Part shown: positions 11,213 to 59,134 of the stretch, in pieces
Position numbering within the stretch: position 1 is the first letter of the stretch
Layout of the letters: every line of letters begins with the position of its first letter
Assembly (NCBI RefSeq): GCF_001761365.1
Contig: NZ_CP017477.1
Span: 1,982,501-2,046,500, forward strand
Reading direction: 5' to 3'
Source: Polaribacter vadi
GTDB lineage: Bacteria > Bacteroidota > Bacteroidia > Flavobacteriales > Flavobacteriaceae
Length of the DNA: 64,000 nucleotides
Made by a program: the position numbers and the translations under genes
The notes under the pieces: model-generated
What the model saw: the letters and a program-made list of their open reading frames with translations, nothing else
Told to the model about the DNA's origin: nothing
The model's database searches: none

Positions 11213-11260
11213 ATACGTCAAATGACGTATTGTTTTCATTTTCGTTTTTAAGCAGTTTTG
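11213..11260 (+). promoter_or_regulatory. Regulon site 1: palindrome plus -7 box
   Basis: The perfect palindrome ATACGTCAAATGACGTAT (8-bp arms around AA) spans 11213-11230. Counting from its end, the 30th base is the G of CAGTTTTG at 11253-11260, which can serve as the -7 box. The gene start is 25 bp further on. The same geometry is seen at three other promoters in this locus. Confidence 0.75.
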
Positions 11261-11284
11261 TAACTGAACTTTAAAACATTTAAA

Positions 11285-12358
11285 ATGAAAAAAGTATTCT
11301 TATCTACAATCGTAATTTGTTTTACAATTTCTTTAAACGCACAAAGCTTAGGAAAGTTAAAAATTACTGACAAAACTTATGGATTAAATAAAATGAAAAA
11401 ATCCTCAAAAAAAATCTATATTAATTCTTTTAATGTAGATTTTGAAATTTACAAAGAAGCAGTAGATTTTAAAGCTGGTGGAGATGGTGGAAAAATTGGG
11501 GGAAATAAAAGTAGTGCAACTGCAAGAGCTGCTGTAGGTTTAGATGGTGTTGATGCTATTAAAATGCAAGAAAAAACAAATTTACTTTTTAATAATTTTG
11601 TAGATCGATTAAAAAAAGAGGGTTATGAAATTATAGCTGGAGAAGAAGCTGGTAAAACAGATGCGTTACAAGGTTGGGATAAAGCAAGCGGACCCTATAT
11701 TATAGAAAGTAGAAGTGGTATTATTACTTGTGCACCAGAAAACTACACTTTTTTTCACAAAAAAGCTGGCATTTTAGGTCTGGGTGGTTTAGGTATACAA
11801 TCTAAACTTTCTAAAGATTTAGATGATGCAATTATTGCAGATGTTAATATGCATGTAATGTTTTCTGAAAATGGTAGCGACTTTTTTAGTGCTGGTGGTG
11901 CAAAAGTAAAGATCTTAACTAATTTGCGTTTAATTGATGAATATGTAGTTACAATTCCTAAAAAATTGAAAAAGAAAAAAAGCACTTTAGGTAAAATATT
12001 TGGCTCTGTTCAAATAAAAGGTGCAGTAGAAAGTTACCCTGTAAATTCTATGATTTCGTTTTCTTACGGAAAAACAGGTTTAGGTTCTACAGCACAGTTT
12101 ATGGGAACACTAAAGGACGATCTTGAAATTGAAGGTGTTATGAAAAAAGAAAAAATTGTTGCTTACCAAAAACAGGGTTCTTTTACACCAACTTCATTTT
12201 CTACATTTTCTAATTATTTAGACGCAAAAGCAGATCGATTTTCTAAAACTGCAAAATGGATTAAAGTTGATCCTGATAAATACGCAGAAGGATATTACAA
12301 CGCTTGTAATACTTTTTTAGAAAAACAATTAGATGCGTTTTTTAATGAAATTAAATAA
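11285..12358 (+). CDS. Secreted protein of unknown function, first regulon gene
   Basis: A 357-residue protein with a clear signal peptide (MKKVFLSTIVICFTISLNAQ). I do not recognise a family. The mature part has a Gly-rich GGDGGKIGG stretch near 62, a basic segment KKLKKKKSTLG near 230, and a C-terminal region rich in Lys and aromatics. There is no lipobox, TonB-linked motif or T9SS sorting tail. It stands alone between two copies of the palindromic site, with the upstream copy placed to drive it. It may be the main output of the two-component system at 13334-16145. Confidence 0.8.
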   Translation: MKKVFLSTIVICFTISLNAQSLGKLKITDKTYGLNKMKKSSKKIYINSFNVDFEIYKEAVDFKAGGDGGKIGGNKSSATARAAVGLDGVDAIKMQEKTNLLFNNFVDRLKKEGYEIIAGEEAGKTDALQGWDKASGPYIIESRSGIITCAPENYTFFHKKAGILGLGGLGIQSKLSKDLDDAIIADVNMHVMFSENGSDFFSAGGAKVKILTNLRLIDEYVVTIPKKLKKKKSTLGKIFGSVQIKGAVESYPVNSMISFSYGKTGLGSTAQFMGTLKDDLEIEGVMKKEKIVAYQKQGSFTPTSFSTFSNYLDAKADRFSKTAKWIKVDPDKYAEGYYNACNTFLEKQLDAFFNEIK

Positions 12359-12372
12359 CTAAAATTTCTAAA

Positions 12373-12420
12373 ATAGGTCAATTGCCGTATTTTAAAAATA
12401 AAAGTTATGTTAGAAGTTTG
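12373..12420 (+). promoter_or_regulatory. Regulon site 2: palindrome plus -7 box
   Basis: The imperfect palindrome ATAGGTCAATTGCCGTAT spans 12373-12390. Exactly 30 nt later, GAAGTTTG ends at 12420. The lipoprotein gene starts at 12447. It differs from site 1 mainly in the outer arm bases. Confidence 0.72.
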
Positions 12421-12446
12421 TAGAAATAAATTTAAAAATAAAAATT

Positions 12447-12920
12447 ATGAAAAAATTAAAAAACGTATTTTTCTTTGTTTGCTTATCTGCATTAATATCT
12501 TGTAGTGATGCTACAGATGAAGATTTAGGAATTTCTGGAGAAGGCTCTTTTACAGCTAAAGTTGATGGAGTTATCTTTACATCTCTAAAAGCAACAGTTG
12601 GTGCATCTGTTTCTAAAGAAGTTGCTGCCATACAAGGATCAAAATCTGATGGAGAATATATTAGAATTAACATTTTAAACTACACTGGTGTTGGCACTTA
12701 TACAACTGGAGATGCTGTTACAAATGTAAATTCCATACAATATGGCACTGTAAGCCCAATTTCAACTTGGATTTCTACCTTTAACCAAGGAACTGGAACC
12801 ATTAAAATAACAGAAGACACTTCCTCAACTATTTCTGGTACGTTTTCATTTACAGGCGTTCAAGATGGTTTTGCAAACAAAATAGTTACAGAAGGTACCT
12901 TTAACGCTCCAAAAAAATAA
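12447..12920 (+). CDS. DUF6252-like lipoprotein
   Basis: A 157-residue lipoprotein: signal MKKLKNVFFFVCLSALIS followed by a lipobox Cys at residue 19. The mature part is a small beta-rich domain with SGEGSFTAKVDGVIFTS near 29, a pattern seen in DUF6252-type Flavobacteriia lipoproteins, and ends VTEGTFNAPKK. It is probably exposed in the outer membrane or periplasm. It has its own copy of the regulon site and sits between the secreted protein and the kinase genes, so it is likely a co-regulated output. Its function is not known. Confidence 0.8.
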   Translation: MKKLKNVFFFVCLSALISCSDATDEDLGISGEGSFTAKVDGVIFTSLKATVGASVSKEVAAIQGSKSDGEYIRINILNYTGVGTYTTGDAVTNVNSIQYGTVSPISTWISTFNQGTGTIKITEDTSSTISGTFSFTGVQDGFANKIVTEGTFNAPKK

Positions 12921-12948
12921 GGGAAACTTTGAAATGAAAAAGAGAAAA

Positions 12949-12996
12949 ATACGGCATTTGTCGTATTTTTTTTTGCTTTTAAATTTAGGAAATTTG
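12949..12996 (+). promoter_or_regulatory. Regulon site 3: palindrome plus -7 box
   Basis: ATACGGCATTTGTCGTAT spans 12949-12966 (arms with one mismatch). The sequence GAAATTTG ends at 12996, again exactly 30 nt after the palindrome. It precedes the small membrane protein and kinase genes. Confidence 0.72.
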
Positions 12997-13017
12997 TATT
13001 AAAAAATATTTAATTTG

Positions 13018-13293
13018 ATGGTCCAAACCTTTAAAATATCTTATTATTTAATTCCAATTTTAGTGATTTTAGGAAGCTATTTTTATTATTCTTTTCAAAA
13101 ATTGAAAAAAGTTGAAACTAAAAGATTGCAACTTTTATACGCCGAAATTTTACTTGAAAAAGAAGTTATGCAACATTTTAAAAAAGAGTCTAAAAAAACA
13201 GATGATCTAAATAACTCAATTGAACAAAAGTTATTAAAAATTAAAGTTTCCATTTTTAATATTGATTTTAGTTTGAGTGAAATTTTTAATTAA
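13018..13293 (+). CDS. Small membrane protein with coiled coil, kinase partner
   Basis: A 91-residue protein with one N-terminal transmembrane helix (about 7-26, ISYYLIPILVILGSYFYY) and a charged helical tail likely to form a coiled coil. The ATG at 13018 is chosen over an overlapping TTG one codon upstream. It ends 40 bp before the preferred start of the histidine kinase and shares its promoter. I do not recognise a family. It may modulate the kinase, which is inferred from operon position only. Confidence 0.7.
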   Translation: MVQTFKISYYLIPILVILGSYFYYSFQKLKKVETKRLQLLYAEILLEKEVMQHFKKESKKTDDLNNSIEQKLLKIKVSIFNIDFSLSEIFN

Positions 13294-13333
13294 AATAAAA
13301 ATCTTAAATTGTATTCCTAATTATCAATCCTTT

Positions 13334-15445
13334 ATGGAAAATATAAAATCAAATATCTTAATTTTATTATTACTTTTTTCACTTTCGAATCTATCTCAAA
13401 ACAGGAAAATAGATAGTTTAAAAACCAAATTGAATGTAACTTTTAATGAAAAGGAAAAAGCTGACATACTTATGCTGTTAGTTGATAACTATTTTAATAC
13501 AAATAAAGATTCTGCTGAAATTTATATCCAAAAAACAATTCAACTAACAGAAGGTAAAGAAAATCTTAAAACGCCAAATATTCATTCTATTTTAAAATTT
13601 GCACAGCTATATATAGTAAAAGGCGATTATGTAAAATCTCAAGCTAAATACGATTTAGCCTGGAGTAAAATGAAAGGTGAATATAATTATTTTTTGTATA
13701 ATAAATATTATGGAGATTTAGGAGTTTTAAATTTTTATAAAGGTGATTTCGAAAGCGCCTTAAAAAGTTTTACAGCAGGACTTGAATTGGCTGAAAAAGA
13801 AAAAAATGAAGCAGATCAATTACGATTCTTAAATAACAAAGCGCTTGCTATGTCTTATTTAGGGAAAGCAGAAAGTTCTTTGGATGTTCATAAAAAAGCA
13901 ATTTCTCTTGCCGAAAAATTAAATGATTCTACTGCTTTAGGAAAATCTTTCAACAACATTGGTTTGATTTATGAGGATATGAAAGAATATCAAAAAGCTT
14001 TAGAGTTTTATAAGCAGGCTTTAGAAATTAAGAAAAATGGAAAAAGTCAAGTTGATGTTGCCAATAGCTTATATAATGTTGCAGGAATGTATAAAGAAAT
14101 TGGCGAGAAAGAAAAAGACACATCCCTATATTCAAAAGCAGAAAACTACTATCAAAAATCGTTAAATATTGCTAAAAAGATAGATTATGGTAAAGTTGTT
14201 TTGTTCAGCAAAACAGGTATTGCTCAATTAGCAACTGTTAGAAATCAACATGAAAAAGCAATTTCCATTTATAAATCTGTAATAATTGATGCAGAGAAAA
14301 CAAATGATGCTCAAACTTTAAGAGTTTGTTATCTTAATTTAGGTATCAATTACTTAAAATTGAAGCAAATAAATATTGCTGAAAGTTATTTATTAAAAGC
14401 ACTTCCCTTAATAGAAAATGCGAATAATCCAGCAGATAAAGCTAAAATATATAAGAATTTATCTTCAGTTTATGCTGAAAAAAAACAATTTCCTAAAGCT
14501 TATACTTATTTTCAAAAACAATACGATTTAGAGAATGAACTTTCTAAAAATTCATTACAAACTAAAATATCTGATTTTGAAGTAAAATATGAAACCGCAA
14601 AAAAAGAAAAAGAAATAGCCCAGCAAAAAGAGGAACTTTTAGAAAAAGAATTAGCCATTAAAAACAGAAATTTATACACACTTCTCTTAGCATCAGCTTT
14701 ACTAATTTTAGGAATTATCTTTTTTGGGATTTATAAAAAGAACCAATTTAAAAGAAAACAATTACAGAAAGAAATCGATTTGAAAGATGCTTTAGCAACG
14801 ATAAAAACACAAAACAGATTGCAAGAACAACGTTTAAGAATTTCTAGAGATTTGCATGATAATATAGGTTCTCAACTTACCTTTATCATATCATCAATAG
14901 ATAATTTAAAATTTGTTTCTAAAGGCGAAAATGATAAATTAAAAGATAAATTAAGCAATATTAGTTCTTTTACTTCTGGCACTATTCACGAATTAAGAGA
15001 CACCATTTGGGCTATGAATAAAAGTAAAATTTCTGTTGAAGATCTGCACTCAAGAATTTTATCATTTATAGAAAAAGCAAAAATTGCAGTACCAGAATTG
15101 GAGTTTGAGATTTTATATACCATTAATAAAAATACCAGTTTTTCTTCTTTAATTGGTATGAATTTATTTCGAGTAATTCAAGAAGCTATTAATAACGCTA
15201 TTAAATATGCAGAAGCCAGTAAACTTGAAATTCATCTAAAAAAAGAGCAGCAAAATTTCGTGATTTCTATTATTGATAATGGCAAAGGATTCAATATTAA
15301 TACAGTCGATTTAGGAAATGGTTTAAGTAATATGGAAAAAAGAATGAGTGATATTGATGGTAAAGTGAGCATCAACTCAAAAGAAAAAATAGGTACAGAA
15401 ATTAAGCTAGAAATTGCGTTAGAAAATACGTCAAATGACGTATAA
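13334..15445 (+). CDS. TPR-containing sensor histidine kinase (NarX/HisKA_3 type)
   Basis: A 703-residue sensor kinase. A signal peptide (MENIKSNILILLLLFSLSNL) leads to a periplasmic part with several tetratricopeptide repeats (about 80-400, for example SFNNIGLIYEDMKEYQKALE), a coiled coil, one membrane helix (about 450-470), a HisKA_3 dimerisation box RISRDLHDNIGSQL with His near 508, and a HATPase with NNAIKYAEA and DNGKGF. The ATG at 13334 gives a proper signal peptide, while a longer reading adds a non-signal stretch. The last codons overlap regulon site 4. It pairs with the adjacent response regulator. Confidence 0.93.
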   Translation: MENIKSNILILLLLFSLSNLSQNRKIDSLKTKLNVTFNEKEKADILMLLVDNYFNTNKDSAEIYIQKTIQLTEGKENLKTPNIHSILKFAQLYIVKGDYVKSQAKYDLAWSKMKGEYNYFLYNKYYGDLGVLNFYKGDFESALKSFTAGLELAEKEKNEADQLRFLNNKALAMSYLGKAESSLDVHKKAISLAEKLNDSTALGKSFNNIGLIYEDMKEYQKALEFYKQALEIKKNGKSQVDVANSLYNVAGMYKEIGEKEKDTSLYSKAENYYQKSLNIAKKIDYGKVVLFSKTGIAQLATVRNQHEKAISIYKSVIIDAEKTNDAQTLRVCYLNLGINYLKLKQINIAESYLLKALPLIENANNPADKAKIYKNLSSVYAEKKQFPKAYTYFQKQYDLENELSKNSLQTKISDFEVKYETAKKEKEIAQQKEELLEKELAIKNRNLYTLLLASALLILGIIFFGIYKKNQFKRKQLQKEIDLKDALATIKTQNRLQEQRLRISRDLHDNIGSQLTFIISSIDNLKFVSKGENDKLKDKLSNISSFTSGTIHELRDTIWAMNKSKISVEDLHSRILSFIEKAKIAVPELEFEILYTINKNTSFSSLIGMNLFRVIQEAINNAIKYAEASKLEIHLKKEQQNFVISIIDNGKGFNINTVDLGNGLSNMEKRMSDIDGKVSINSKEKIGTEIKLEIALENTSNDV

Positions 15446-15473
15446 AAATTTTTAGAAATAATTGTTATTTTTA
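15426..15473 (+). promoter_or_regulatory. Regulon site 4: palindrome plus -7 box for the response regulator
   Basis: ATACGTCAAATGACGTAT spans 15426-15443, identical to site 1, and forms the last codons and part of the stop of the kinase gene. Exactly 30 nt later TATTTTTA ends at 15473, one base off the TAnnTTTG consensus. The response regulator ATG is at 15492, so it probably has its own autoregulated promoter. Confidence 0.75.
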
Positions 15474-15491: not shown

Positions 15492-16145
15492 ATGAACTTA
15501 AAAATTTGCATTGCAGAAGACAATTATTTCTTAACCAAAGCCATCAAAGAAAAACTATCTTTTTTTGAGGATATTTCCGTAAAATTTCATGCAAATAATG
15601 GTGCAGAATTAATTGGCAAATTAGAGGAAAACCATAACATAGATGTTATTTTAATGGATATTCAAATGCCAGTAATGGATGGCATAAAAGCCACAGAATT
15701 GGTAAAGAACAAATATCCGCAGATAAAAGTAATTATGCTAACTGTTGTAGATGATGATGAGTGTATTTTTAATGCGATAAAAGCTGGTGCAAATGGCTAT
15801 TTATTGAAAGAAATTGATGCTGAAAACTTACATAAAAGCATTTTAGAAGTAACAGAAGGTGGTGCACCAATGACACCAAGTATAGCTCTTAAAACCTTAA
15901 ATTTATTAAGAAATCCTGATGTATCAACTTCTAAATCAAAAGATGAAGAGGAAATTAAATTAACCAAAAGAGAAACCGAAATTCTAATACAATTAAGTAA
16001 AGGTCTTAATTACAATAGTATTTCAGATAATTTAATTATTTCGCCATCAACTGTAAGAAAACACATCGAAAACATCTACAAAAAACTACAAGTACACAGT
16101 AAAATGGAAGCTGTTATGAAAGCTCAAAATAGGAATCTTATTTAA
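15492..16145 (+). CDS. NarL/FixJ-type response regulator
   Basis: A 217-residue two-component regulator. The receiver domain has the acidic pair CIAEDN near 10, the phosphorylated Asp56 in VILMDIQMPVMDG, Thr in MLTVVDD and Lys in YLLKEID. A LuxR-type helix-turn-helix follows (LTKRETEILIQLSKG, then ISPSTVRKHIENIYKKL). Three starts are possible (TTG 15462, ATG 15483, ATG 15492); ATG 15492 fits the family N terminus. NarL-type proteins bind short palindromes as dimers, so this is the natural candidate to bind the four ATACG...CGTAT sites. Confidence 0.94.
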   Translation: MNLKICIAEDNYFLTKAIKEKLSFFEDISVKFHANNGAELIGKLEENHNIDVILMDIQMPVMDGIKATELVKNKYPQIKVIMLTVVDDDECIFNAIKAGANGYLLKEIDAENLHKSILEVTEGGAPMTPSIALKTLNLLRNPDVSTSKSKDEEEIKLTKRETEILIQLSKGLNYNSISDNLIISPSTVRKHIENIYKKLQVHSKMEAVMKAQNRNLI

Positions 16146-16481: not shown

Positions 16482-18227
16482 TTAATTTAGATGCAAATTT
16501 AAACCATTTTCAATAAGTTTAGTGTAACTTTTGTTACTTTTTAATGCTTGCAAAGTATTTAAAAGTTTATTTTTGATAGCAAAATTGTTTTCTAAAGCCA
16601 ATTCATACAACTCTAAGAGCAACAACCAATCCTCTGAATATTCTTTTTTAAGTTGATGAAATATCGCTTCTATTTTATCTTCAGTAGCTGAATTTGTTTC
16701 ACGCATTTCGCGAACTTCATCATACAAAACATATAATTTTTTAGCAGTTTCTGAATAGGTTATTTTATGCGTTTTAGTTTCAGAAACTTTACTGGTATCT
16801 AAAAAGGAAGCAACATCTGCAGCTCCTGCATACGCAGAAACAACTTCTTTACCAACAGCCATATCATATAAACCCCAATCTGGTTGAAATAAAACTTCGT
16901 CTTTATAAGTTACTGTACATTCATCAAACGTAATCATTAAAATTTTACCTCGTAAATCTCTAGTTCCAGTAATTGCTTTTCCTTTTAAAATGATGCCACT
17001 CTCAAACTCTAAAGTCATAAATTCGCCTTCGTAAATTCCATAAGCTTTTAAATCTCTTGGACTCATGTCTTCAATAGGTAAATTAATTCCTTTTAGCTTA
17101 CCTATTGGACTTCCAAACCCATTTTTATGGGTTGAAATTCCATGACCAATTAATTCTTTATCTCTGTTTGCCAAAGCAGTTTCTCCAACTGTTTGAAAAT
17201 AGGCAACTTTGTTATTCTTAAACGGAATTACTTTGTCGAAATTTCCAGAAATCTGAATTCCTGTCGTTAATTCGATAGTTCCTAAACCTTTAGAATCTAT
17301 TAACTTTTTAATGCCATTTAAACCTCCTTTTCGCAAAGCCATTGTATTTGCAAATTCGTCTAAAACCAAACTTAAATATGCAAAATCTGGCGTTACAAAT
17401 AATTGAGGTTGTGGTTTTGTAATATCAAAATTAATAGTGGCAGCATCAATTGAATATGGCTTTTTTTCCACTTCATCTTGCATACACCAAGCACTTTCTC
17501 CAATAGATGAAAGCAAACCTGCTCCATAAATTTTTGGGTTTTCTAAAGTACCAATCAAACCATATTCTACAGTCCACCAATGTAAATTTCTAATCATTGC
17601 CATTTCCGACAATTCCCCAATATTATTTTGCAACCATTCTACTTGCTCTTGGGCTTCGATTATTTCTTTTTCACTAGAATTTGGATTTTCTTTTAAAATA
17701 GATAAAAGCCTAATAGCTTCATACATTTCATAATCTTTGGCAGATGAAATTGCTTTGCTGCCAATTTCTCCAAAGCGTCTTAAATATTCAGAATATTCTG
17801 GGTTTGCAATAATGGGTGCATGTCCAGCAGCTTCATGAATAATATCTGGTGCAGGTGTATATTCTATGTGATTTATAGTTCGCATATCTGATGCAATTAC
17901 CAACACATTATACGCTTGGAATTCCATAAAAGCATTTGGTGGAATAAAACCATCTACAGAAACTGCAGCCCAACCAATTTCTTTTAAAATTCGGTTCATG
18001 CCTTCCATTTTTGGAATATTTTCAGTAGAAATTCCTGTTTTTTCCAAACCAGGAATGTAAGATTTATGCGCAACTTTGCTTAAATAATCTACATTCATTC
18101 GCATCACATATCTCCAAACTGCTTGGTTTTGAGATGTATATTCTTCATAAGGTTGTTTTACAACAAACTTGTGCAAATGTTTGGGTAACTTTTTGGTTAC
18201 TTCGTTCAATTCAAAATGCAATTCCAT
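16482..18227 (-). CDS. Aromatic amino acid hydroxylase (phenylalanine 4-monooxygenase-like), long form
   Basis: A 581-residue pterin-dependent iron hydroxylase. The iron ligands are in IIHEAAGHAP (His131 and His136), with a further Glu in the WWTVEYGLIG helix near 220. Substrate loop residues DGFIPPNAFM (near 92) are also typical. The catalytic part takes up only about the first 300 residues. The rest is an extra C-terminal region of about 270 residues found in the long bacterial forms, whose role I cannot name. It most likely converts Phe to Tyr and starts Phe catabolism; Tyr or Trp as substrate cannot be excluded. Confidence 0.88.
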   Translation of the reverse strand: MELHFELNEVTKKLPKHLHKFVVKQPYEEYTSQNQAVWRYVMRMNVDYLSKVAHKSYIPGLEKTGISTENIPKMEGMNRILKEIGWAAVSVDGFIPPNAFMEFQAYNVLVIASDMRTINHIEYTPAPDIIHEAAGHAPIIANPEYSEYLRRFGEIGSKAISSAKDYEMYEAIRLLSILKENPNSSEKEIIEAQEQVEWLQNNIGELSEMAMIRNLHWWTVEYGLIGTLENPKIYGAGLLSSIGESAWCMQDEVEKKPYSIDAATINFDITKPQPQLFVTPDFAYLSLVLDEFANTMALRKGGLNGIKKLIDSKGLGTIELTTGIQISGNFDKVIPFKNNKVAYFQTVGETALANRDKELIGHGISTHKNGFGSPIGKLKGINLPIEDMSPRDLKAYGIYEGEFMTLEFESGIILKGKAITGTRDLRGKILMITFDECTVTYKDEVLFQPDWGLYDMAVGKEVVSAYAGAADVASFLDTSKVSETKTHKITYSETAKKLYVLYDEVREMRETNSATEDKIEAIFHQLKKEYSEDWLLLLELYELALENNFAIKNKLLNTLQALKSNKSYTKLIENGLNLHLN

Positions 18228-18383: not shown

Positions 18384-18677
18384 TTGAGAAGAAATAAAAC
18401 ATACAATGGTTTAGGTGGCTTATCTAGCCATGCCTCAAGTATGATTTCTAGCTTAAAATCAAACTTTAGAAAACGAGATTTGTCTCTTTTAAAAGGAAGT
18501 AAAACTAAAACTTCTTTTGGTAAAATAGATTCAAATAAAAAAGCAACTCCACATCAACTTAAAATTATTAAAGAAAGTCTGCAAAAAGAAAATATTAAAA
18601 AGTTAAAGAGAAATACTATTCTTTTCATTTTTGCCATGATTATTTTAATTTATTGTATTGGTTTTTTAAAGTTTTAA
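18384..18677 (+). CDS. Small Flavobacteriia membrane protein, paralogue A
   Basis: A 97-residue protein with a basic N-terminal half and one C-terminal helix (NTILFIFAMIILIYCIGFL). It shares the block ATPHQLKxIxxxLQKENxxxLKRN and the following helix with the next gene. The TTG at 18384 includes the segment GLGGLSSHASSM; an ATG at 18441 is the alternative start. The family is common in Flavobacteriia and has no known role to me. It is paired with a near-twin 88 bp downstream. Confidence 0.7.
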   Translation: MRRNKTYNGLGGLSSHASSMISSLKSNFRKRDLSLLKGSKTKTSFGKIDSNKKATPHQLKIIKESLQKENIKKLKRNTILFIFAMIILIYCIGFLKF

Positions 18678-18765
18678 ATACTCAACACTTTCATTTTTAA
18701 CGCAAATCAGTTAGTTTTTGTAACATTTATTGAATTTCAACTACTTATATATAAAGATTTACGTT

Positions 18766-19023
18766 ATGAGTTCAATAGCTGCAATGATTACCACTTTAAA
18801 AAACAACAAAAGAAAGCGGGTTTCTACTTTTAAAAAAATGAAAGATTTTAAAGAAGGTAAAAACATTCAAGTTTCTTTTGATAAAAGTGCAACTCCACAT
18901 CAACTTAAAAACATACGAGAAAAACTTCAAAAAGAAAATAAACAGATTCTGAAAAGAAATATTATCGTTCTTATTTTTATAATGATTCTTCTTATTTATA
19001 TGATTGGTTTTGTGAAATTTTAA
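18766..19023 (+). CDS. Small Flavobacteriia membrane protein, paralogue B
   Basis: An 85-residue protein with the same layout as the preceding gene: MSSIAAMITTLKNN, a basic middle, the shared block SATPHQLKNIREKLQKEN, and a terminal helix ending IGFVKF. The ATG at 18766 is chosen because upstream codons have no similarity to the paralogue. It ends just before a strong hairpin terminator. A tandem duplication is the simplest origin. Confidence 0.75.
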   Translation: MSSIAAMITTLKNNKRKRVSTFKKMKDFKEGKNIQVSFDKSATPHQLKNIREKLQKENKQILKRNIIVLIFIMILLIYMIGFVKF

Positions 19024-57451: not shown

Positions 57452-59134
57452 TTATTTTCCGTTAACAATTCTGTCTGCCATTTGCAAAGCATTATTTGCA
57501 TTTACAACTCTACCAGTTACAGATAAATCTGAAAAAGGAACCATTTCTCCTTTAGGATTTTCTTGAGATTGTGAACCTGGTTTTACAACTTGTAAATCTA
57601 TTTTTGTTCCAGAATTCATAATAATCATCTTCACTTGATTTGCAGATAATTCTGGATAGTAAGAACGTATTAAAGCTGCAACTCCAGAAGTTGAAGGTGC
57701 TGCCATAGATGTTCCACTAAATTTTGCATACCCATTTTCTGGAGTCGTAGAATGTATTTGAACTCCAGGAGCAAAAATATCAACATTTATTTTTCCATAA
57801 TTAGAAAATGATGCTGGTAAATTTTCATCATAACTAGCACTCATTGCTCCTATTGATAATAAATTATTTGAAAACTCCATTTTTAAATCTTCAGAATCAT
57901 TTGGATAAGTTCTTTCAATATCAATATTTTTACCATCATTTCCTGCTGCATTTACAATTAAAACATCCTTTTCTGCTGCGTATTTAATAGCATCATAAAC
58001 CCATTCTTTATTTGGCGAAAATGGTTTACCAAAACTAGTATTAATCACTTTTGCTCCATTATCTACTGCATATCTAATTCCTAAAGCAACATCTTTATCA
58101 TATTCATCTCCACCAGAAACTGAACGAACTGCCATAATTTTTACATTATTTGCAACTCCATTCATTCCTATTCCATTATTTCTTGTAGCTCCAATAATTC
58201 CTGAAACGTGAGATCCATGAGCTTCATCAATTTCAGAATGCCCAGGATTTCCATCTCCATAACCAGGTTTGTCATTAATATCATAAGGATTATCACCAAC
58301 AACTGTTCTGTAATCCGTTTTTAAATTATCGCCACTTATTAATTTTTTATTGGCTGCTAATTGATCAATAAAATAATTTACACCACCTTCTATTTCTGTT
58401 TTTGCTGCTGCCATAGATGGTAAACCAAAAGCATACATTTGTTTTGCAAAAGCAACTTGATTTGATAAATTTTCATCAGTTGTAGAAATTGCTAAAACTT
58501 CTTCTTTTGTATAATCTTCTTTTCCGAAATGTTTTACAAAAGCTTCATTTGCAGTTTTTACACCTTGTAATAATTGCTCATATCTTGTTTTGTTTTGCAA
58601 CAACGTTTCATTTGCTTTTTTTGCAGCATCCAATTTTTCTTGGTAATAAGCTTTTACTTCAGCTAATGTTTCTGAATCAGCTACTGATGGATTCATTAAA
58701 ATACGCTCATATTCTAAATGCTCTTTGTAAGATTTTCCTAAAAAATTCCATCCATTAATATCATCTATATAGCCATTTTTATCGTCATCAATTCCATTAC
58801 CAGCAGTTTCTTTTGTGTTTACCCAAGCAACGTCTACTAAATCTTCGTGTTTTAAATCTGTTCCAGAATCTACAACTCCAACAACTACAGTTACACTCGT
58901 TTTTCCCTTTAAAAATTTGTATGCTTTATCTACACTCATTCCTGGAATGGTGTCTGTTGCTAAATCTAAATGTTGCCAATTATCTTTTTCAACATCTGTT
59001 AACGCTACTTTTTTAGCAGGAATGTTTATAGCATTATTACTTCCATTAGGGACAGGAAGATTAGGTATTGTTTTACAACTTGCTAAAAAAAGTCCAGCAA
59101 ATGCCGTATATAAAACTGGTTTTAAAATTCTCAT
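57452..59134 (-). CDS. S8 family serine peptidase (subtilisin-like), lipoprotein
   Basis: A 560-residue protease with lipobox signal (MRILKPVLYTAFAGLFLASC, Cys20). The triad is Asp in VGVVDSGTDLKHEDL near 87, His in DEAHGSHVSGIIGA near 304 and Ser in FSGTSMAAPSTSGVAAL near 478. A roughly 150-residue coiled insertion (about 135-280) lies between Asp and His. No T9SS sorting tail is seen, so it probably stays bound to a membrane. It lies 54 bp upstream of the M1 peptidase gene in the same direction. Confidence 0.93.
   Translation of the reverse strand: MRILKPVLYTAFAGLFLASCKTIPNLPVPNGSNNAINIPAKKVALTDVEKDNWQHLDLATDTIPGMSVDKAYKFLKGKTSVTVVVGVVDSGTDLKHEDLVDVAWVNTKETAGNGIDDDKNGYIDDINGWNFLGKSYKEHLEYERILMNPSVADSETLAEVKAYYQEKLDAAKKANETLLQNKTRYEQLLQGVKTANEAFVKHFGKEDYTKEEVLAISTTDENLSNQVAFAKQMYAFGLPSMAAAKTEIEGGVNYFIDQLAANKKLISGDNLKTDYRTVVGDNPYDINDKPGYGDGNPGHSEIDEAHGSHVSGIIGATRNNGIGMNGVANNVKIMAVRSVSGGDEYDKDVALGIRYAVDNGAKVINTSFGKPFSPNKEWVYDAIKYAAEKDVLIVNAAGNDGKNIDIERTYPNDSEDLKMEFSNNLLSIGAMSASYDENLPASFSNYGKINVDIFAPGVQIHSTTPENGYAKFSGTSMAAPSTSGVAALIRSYYPELSANQVKMIIMNSGTKIDLQVVKPGSQSQENPKGEMVPFSDLSVTGRVVNANNALQMADRIVNGK

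Follow-up and report, generated by a model that had tools for sequence, protein, structure and literature searches.

A TPR kinase/NarL-type regulator pair of Polaribacter vadi probably activates an extracytoplasmic regulon, and itself, from palindromes at fixed promoter spacing

A 64,000-nucleotide (nt) stretch of the Polaribacter vadi genome (assembly GCF_001761365.1, contig NZ_CP017477.1, positions 1,982,501 to 2,046,500; hereafter the window) contains a gene cluster for a TPR sensor histidine kinase (HK) and a NarL-type response regulator (RR) in which four palindromes each end exactly 30 nt before the end of a -7-like promoter box. On comparative evidence, we are fairly confident that this pair activates both its own genes and an extracytoplasmic regulon, acting at a 7-2-7 site whose centre lies near -43.5; in many relatives, too, kinase and regulator probably switch on a small set of cell-surface or secreted gene products and their own genes. 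The analysis presented here shows that the sites exist, that their spacing is fixed, that they are conserved and inherited together with the regulator, and that the promoters fall into two classes.

All features lie on the forward strand and are given in window coordinates. Palindrome 1 (ATACGTCAAATGACGTAT, 11213-11230) lies upstream of the gene for a secreted protein (P1), whose box CAGTTTTG (11253-11260) ends 30 nt past it and is accompanied by a -33 TTG (CGTATTG). Palindrome 2 (ATAGGTCAATTGCCGTAT, 12373-12390) precedes the gene for a lipoprotein (LPP; box GAAGTTTG, 12413-12420), palindrome 3 (ATACGGCATTTGTCGTAT, 12949-12966) those for a small membrane protein (SMP; box GAAATTTG, 12989-12996) and HK, and palindrome 4 (ATACGTCAAATGACGTAT, 15426-15443), within the last HK codons, that for RR (box TATTTTTA, 15466-15473, of the regulator class). 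The original prediction, made from the window alone, had the four palindromes at these positions, where they are indeed found, and the 30th base past each as the last base of a box, which is true of all four (counted by hand). It further expected start codons 18-26 bp past the boxes; the ATGs at 11285, 12447, 13018 and 15492 (or 15483) agree, distances from box end being 24, 26, 21 and 18 (or 9) nt for P1, LPP, SMP and RR, respectively. Likewise, no other full copy is present in the window: a scan with the predicted consensus, permitting up to 3 mismatches, returned the four sites (palindrome 3 with 1 mismatch) and added only a weak match at 59092 (3 mismatches), whilst shuffled sequence gave a mean of 0.45 matches and reached 5 in 0/100 shuffles.

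Conservation of this arrangement was examined both from the motif and from the regulator. A motif-first scan of 299 family genomes for TACGNCANNTGNCGTA followed by TTTG after 12-42 nt found the pattern in 39, and 32 of the 66 matches listed, from 23 genomes, had a length of 47 (i.e. the 30-nt spacing), the runner-up being length 36 with 6 matches (hand count). The regulator-first search made no use of the motif (E <= 1e-60; 149 family genomes, taken by handle as G000-G148 of the 299-genome set) and identified orthologues in 44 genomes from 44 genera, each in single copy, the window serving as the P. vadi locus; motif-selected loci were excluded from the conservation counts. Strict palindromes (TASGNCANNTGNCSTA) number 57 and are spread over 21 of these 44 loci; 36 of the 57 have TTTG ending at 30, the next offset having 4 and every offset in the reverse orientation 2 or fewer. 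When only the core TASG-N8-CSTA is required, 125 palindromes are present and 75 of them, across 41 loci, have TTTR ending at exactly 30, with all other forward offsets at 13 or fewer and a reverse-orientation maximum of 15, at offset 5. In contrast, 20 shuffles yielded 0-2 exact sites each. The check run on the prediction, that spaced sites be conserved beside the same kinase/regulator pair, was passed in 41 of the 44 genera. Aligned sites read TACGnCA-NN-TGnCGTA, that is, inverted 7-base elements 2 bp apart, with variants in clade B retaining only TACG-N8-CGTA. Regulator alignment positions 195/196 also differ by clade; since clade and site type coincide, their covariation with site variants is no proof, and was set aside.

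The same 75 sites bear on a quite different interpretation, in which the palindromes would be transcription terminators or RNA hairpins and not protein sites, as might be suggested by a scan that labels palindromes 1, 3 and 4 terminator-like and by the T run after palindrome 3. The median hairpin energy of the sites is, however, -4.3 kcal/mol (below -8 in 8/75), five T follow in only 4/75, and the palindromes keep a fixed distance upstream of the -7 box and the start codon; this interpretation, rejected for the weak hairpins and few T runs, we regard as extremely improbable.

Within the 44 loci, a palindrome lies directly upstream of LPP in 27/32 cases, of genes for MORN proteins (f17) in 6/8, of small membrane gene family f15 in 5/10 and of P1 in 2/4, compared with 1/254 for nine neighbouring gene families combined as a control. 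Besides the regulator and its one or two TPR kinases, the neighbourhoods often share alaS, GSCFA, LPP and a PQQ_2 propeller (f8), with MORN proteins present in some; in relatives, a gene for a small membrane protein, from family f13 or f15, lies upstream of the kinase. Many relatives (loci L144-L177) have two tandem TPR kinases before a single regulator, which suggests two inputs and one output. In the window, palindrome 4 doubles as the final codons of HK (15426-15445); the last 60 nt of a kinase gene are overlapped by 4/75 exact sites, so that in several genera the regulator promoter is embedded in the kinase coding sequence.

It could be argued that another DNA-binding protein uses the palindromes and that the regulator gene is merely one of its targets, given that binding by RR is a prediction and that the genome encodes further regulators of the same kind (48 candidates at first look). 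We consider this improbable, in that sites and regulator co-occur and are lost together. Strict exact matches are found in 14/44 genomes with the regulator versus 0/105 without (p 7e-9; hand count), and the propeller f8 in 34/149 family genomes, all among the regulator-bearing 44 (p 6e-25), both p-values being descriptive only since the genomes are related and not independent; f8 has no match at that cut-off in the P. vadi genome itself. Within its own genus (97 genomes), the regulator and P1 are both patchy, the former occurring in 27 genomes and the latter in 14, all of them within the regulator-bearing 27, a pattern that would arise if the whole system had been lost or transferred repeatedly. 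A palindrome stands upstream of 14/14 of these P1 genes, 12 with exact spacing and TTTG, and within 1.5 kb of 13 of the 26 genus regulator loci other than its own, of which 7 have the exact site, all with TTTA. Outside the genus sample, the genome of L044 retains P1 at 80% identity and has no regulator orthologue (best match 33%; for the L043 genome the figure is 88%). The palindrome at this P1 has decayed, the inner CA and TG being gone and TTTG kept at 30, and the L044 genome thus appears to represent a natural loss of the regulator with a broken palindrome. Together, co-inheritance and this one natural loss point to RR as the user of the palindromes.

Other observations likewise speak against a separate binding protein. 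The 7-2-7 form suits a NarL-type regulator, and regulator relatives at order and class level also adjoin sites: such relatives were found in 21/246 genomes of an order sample (E <= 1e-60) and 16/247 of a phylum sample (E <= 1e-50), other families included, and, of 33 previously unused wider loci, 9 carry a site at exactly 30 nt no more than 1.5 kb away (no shuffle control exists for this set), comprising 6/12 from taxonomic family f7, 1 from f24 (same class, other order) and 2 from the P. vadi family. Moreover, across the whole genome (3,809,314 bases, one contig), ATACGTCAAATGACGTAT is matched within 3 mismatches at five places, namely the four cluster sites and G000:C1:381483, and this sole extra copy is the promoter of one secreted protein. 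The fifth site (ATACGTCAAATTACGTAT) lies 1.6 Mb from the cluster; the 30th base past it is again the last of a box, TAATTTTG (counted by hand), and the gene behind it encodes a 421-residue protein of the type IX secretion system (T9SS) type with a BNR repeat and Por_Secre_tail. The original prediction could not have known of this site, which therefore constitutes an independent success of the spacing rule and through which the proposed regulon also extends beyond the cluster. Looser patterns were swamped by chance matches in this genome (150 versus 64 control matches per strand; 47 versus 55), and a sigma70-type scan was uninformative (25 found, 23.5 expected).

Several points weigh against RR as activator of this regulon. 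There is no palindrome within 1.5 kb at 13/26 of the other genus regulator loci, and no exact site within that distance at 24/33 wider-relative loci or at all in 3/44 family loci (G042, G140 on a 6.5-kb stretch, and G142). A palindrome precedes RR in 20/44 loci, f8 in 17/32, f13 in 0/12 and HK itself in 2/43. The natural loss rests on a single draft genome (L044), the ancestry that related genomes share inflates the p-values, and the palindrome touches the -33 element and would be usable by a repressor too. The overall prediction that the regulator acts at all four promoters is nonetheless supported, at the level of sequence, by conservation of the spaced sites, co-inheritance and the putative regulator loss.

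The position of the sites can be placed relative to transcription. The excerpted text of a flavobacterial start-site map (PMC9723704) has the TAnnTTTG box spanning -12 to -5, which puts the palindromes at about -52 to -35; the centre predicted at about -45 was thus nearby, and is recalculated from this published -7 position as about -43.5. Assignment of the 75 exact sites placed 55 at output genes, 11 at regulatory genes and 9 at neither, with a median distance from box to start codon of 27.5 nt (n=72). Output boxes are mostly CAnnTTTG (TTTG end 52/55, first base T 4/55, -33 TTG 44/55) and regulatory boxes mostly TAnnTTTA (1/11, 10/11 and 2/11, respectively); in the genus sample, exact P1 boxes have TTTG in 12/12 cases and exact regulator boxes TTTA in 7/7. 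In the window the P1 and RR boxes are typical of their classes, and those of LPP and SMP are GAnnTTTG without TTG. The two-class rule breaks in taxonomic family f7, where, by hand reading, TTTG closes 4/6 of the exact sites upstream of the regulator. Tentatively, and with slightly less than even confidence, we propose that one activator uses the same 30-nt scaffold with two core-promoter classes, driving outputs strongly and its own genes weakly: output promoters would pair the palindrome with a -33 TTG and with a -7 box that departs from consensus at the first base (CAnnTTTG), whereas regulator promoters would have no -33 element beside the palindrome and a -7 box that departs at the last base (TAnnTTTA).

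This geometry also invites the proposal that the same regulator represses, seated on the -33 element and barring RNA polymerase until its phosphorylation changes; the palindrome's last T belongs to the -33 TTG at 44/55 output promoters, and a centre at -43.5 is compatible with blocking. Such repression seems unlikely, however, as exact spacing at 75 sites is needed for polymerase contact and less so for blocking, and as the boxes are off-consensus and the -33 element is mostly missing at regulator promoters (9/11), which would leave little there to repress; furthermore, NarL activates from the same position, according to the excerpted text of PMC7419079. Activation by RR is also what the boxes would lead one to expect, their deviation from TAnnTTTG being as anticipated for activated promoters.

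As a mechanism, we infer phosphotransfer, binding, activation, a signal and self-amplification. The membrane kinase, with periplasmic TPR repeats, would phosphorylate the neighbouring NarL-type regulator, a dimer of which would bind the inverted repeat TACGnCA-NN-TGnCGTA about 43.5 bp before the transcription start and contact RNA polymerase where the promoter's own -33/-7 elements are too weak. Targets turned on in this way would be P1, the DUF6252 lipoprotein, the kinase operon and the regulator's own gene, with the propeller and MORN proteins as further candidates in relatives.

Gene annotation agrees with the predicted assignment of the four promoters to a secreted protein, a lipoprotein, SMP with the kinase, and the regulator. 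P1 (11285-12358, ATG 11285) is a secreted protein of 357 residues that matches no family in Pfam or NCBIfam, and a profile search of solved structures gave no clear match; both its named matches in the genome collection are from Polaribacter, as are most named proteins topping the P1 search. LPP (12447-12920, ATG 12447; 157 residues) passes DUF6252 (PF19765; 46.3 bits versus a Pfam gathering score of 27.2). Foldseek with P1 and LPP gave nothing below E 0.001, and the predicted models (predicted local distance difference test, pLDDT, 84.9 and 87.0, respectively) show fold-level resemblance only, to TraT, HpaA, PelC and CsgG for P1 and to LpqH for LPP (VIA second look). SMP (13018-13293, ATG 13018) has some 91 residues and a coiled-coil look. 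HK (13334-15445) contains TPR, HisKA_3 and HATPase_c; reading by eye adds a signal peptide and a single membrane segment. RR (15492-16145, start 15492 or 15483) scores above Pfam cut-offs for Response_reg (87.8 bits) and GerE (60.7 bits); its nearest solved structure by sequence is staphylococcal VraR (residues 6-217, E 1.8e-28), which has the same domain order and differs from the RR system in phylum, kinase type and sites. Downstream of RR, a gene of the biopterin-dependent aromatic amino acid hydroxylase family (16482-18227; Biopterin_H 107 bits) adjoins a rhodanese gene, followed by two adjacent 97-residue frames (18384-18677 and 18730-19023), alike at their ends (HQLKxIxExLQKEN...GFLKF or GFVKF), which are tandem small membrane proteins with no Pfam match above cut-off.

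Exact sites in loci without a kinase/regulator match number 10 (9 from 23 loci examined, and the fifth site above). By eye, the protein behind 8/10 has a signal peptide or lipoprotein peptide at its start, although two of the eight represent one gene from two congeneric species; the other two sites precede or lie in an integrase-like frame and, in G268, an ATP-synthase-like frame, where the match was judged chance and rejected as a real site. In view of these peptides and the P1 and LPP models the regulon looks extracytoplasmic; that its signal is an envelope cue is a guess. RHS-like YD repeats or MORN repeats occur in several of the secreted target proteins at L083, L087 and L106; RHS_repeat matches are weak, in two of these proteins, and one L083 MORN protein has a YD-like N-terminal part.

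The proposed system resembles Escherichia coli NarX/NarL (yeaR-yoaG, ogt) in its receiver and GerE domains, 7-2-7 inverted repeat and single site by the -35/-33 element; in the text excerpted from PMC7419079, NarL activates yeaR from a single 7-2-7 site just upstream of -35, and one ogt site lies at -44.5. It differs in its TPR kinase, envelope or secreted targets, spacing fixed at 75 sites and -33/-7 core promoter, and RR, at 125.3 bits, falls below the NCBIfam NarL equivalog cut-off of 250. Porphyromonas gingivalis FimS-FimR likewise pairs a Bacteroidota TPR kinase with a regulator, FimR positively controlling surface genes; the search-listing text of that work (PMC11053733) describes no palindrome for FimR. 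HK matches the FimS model (E 2.5e-35) at 121.8 bits, short of the equivalog cut-off of 600, and, unlike FimS-FimR, the linked genes scanned included no match to a fimbria family. Among the open-access papers listed by the literature searches, none describes this motif or regulon, judging by titles and the opening lines of abstracts (subscription papers being outside this scope), and no mention of 'DUF6252' was found in open-access papers.

Bacteroidota promoters are unlike those of E. coli, and transcription activation in this phylum is little mapped; the system described here gives a concrete candidate activator, site, spacing rule and target list across dozens of genera. By linking DUF6252 lipoproteins, P1 and the propeller f8 to a single signalling pathway, it may also reveal their roles. 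If the tentative division into two promoter classes is true, the core promoter would encode a brake on runaway self-activation that has been kept across a bacterial family.

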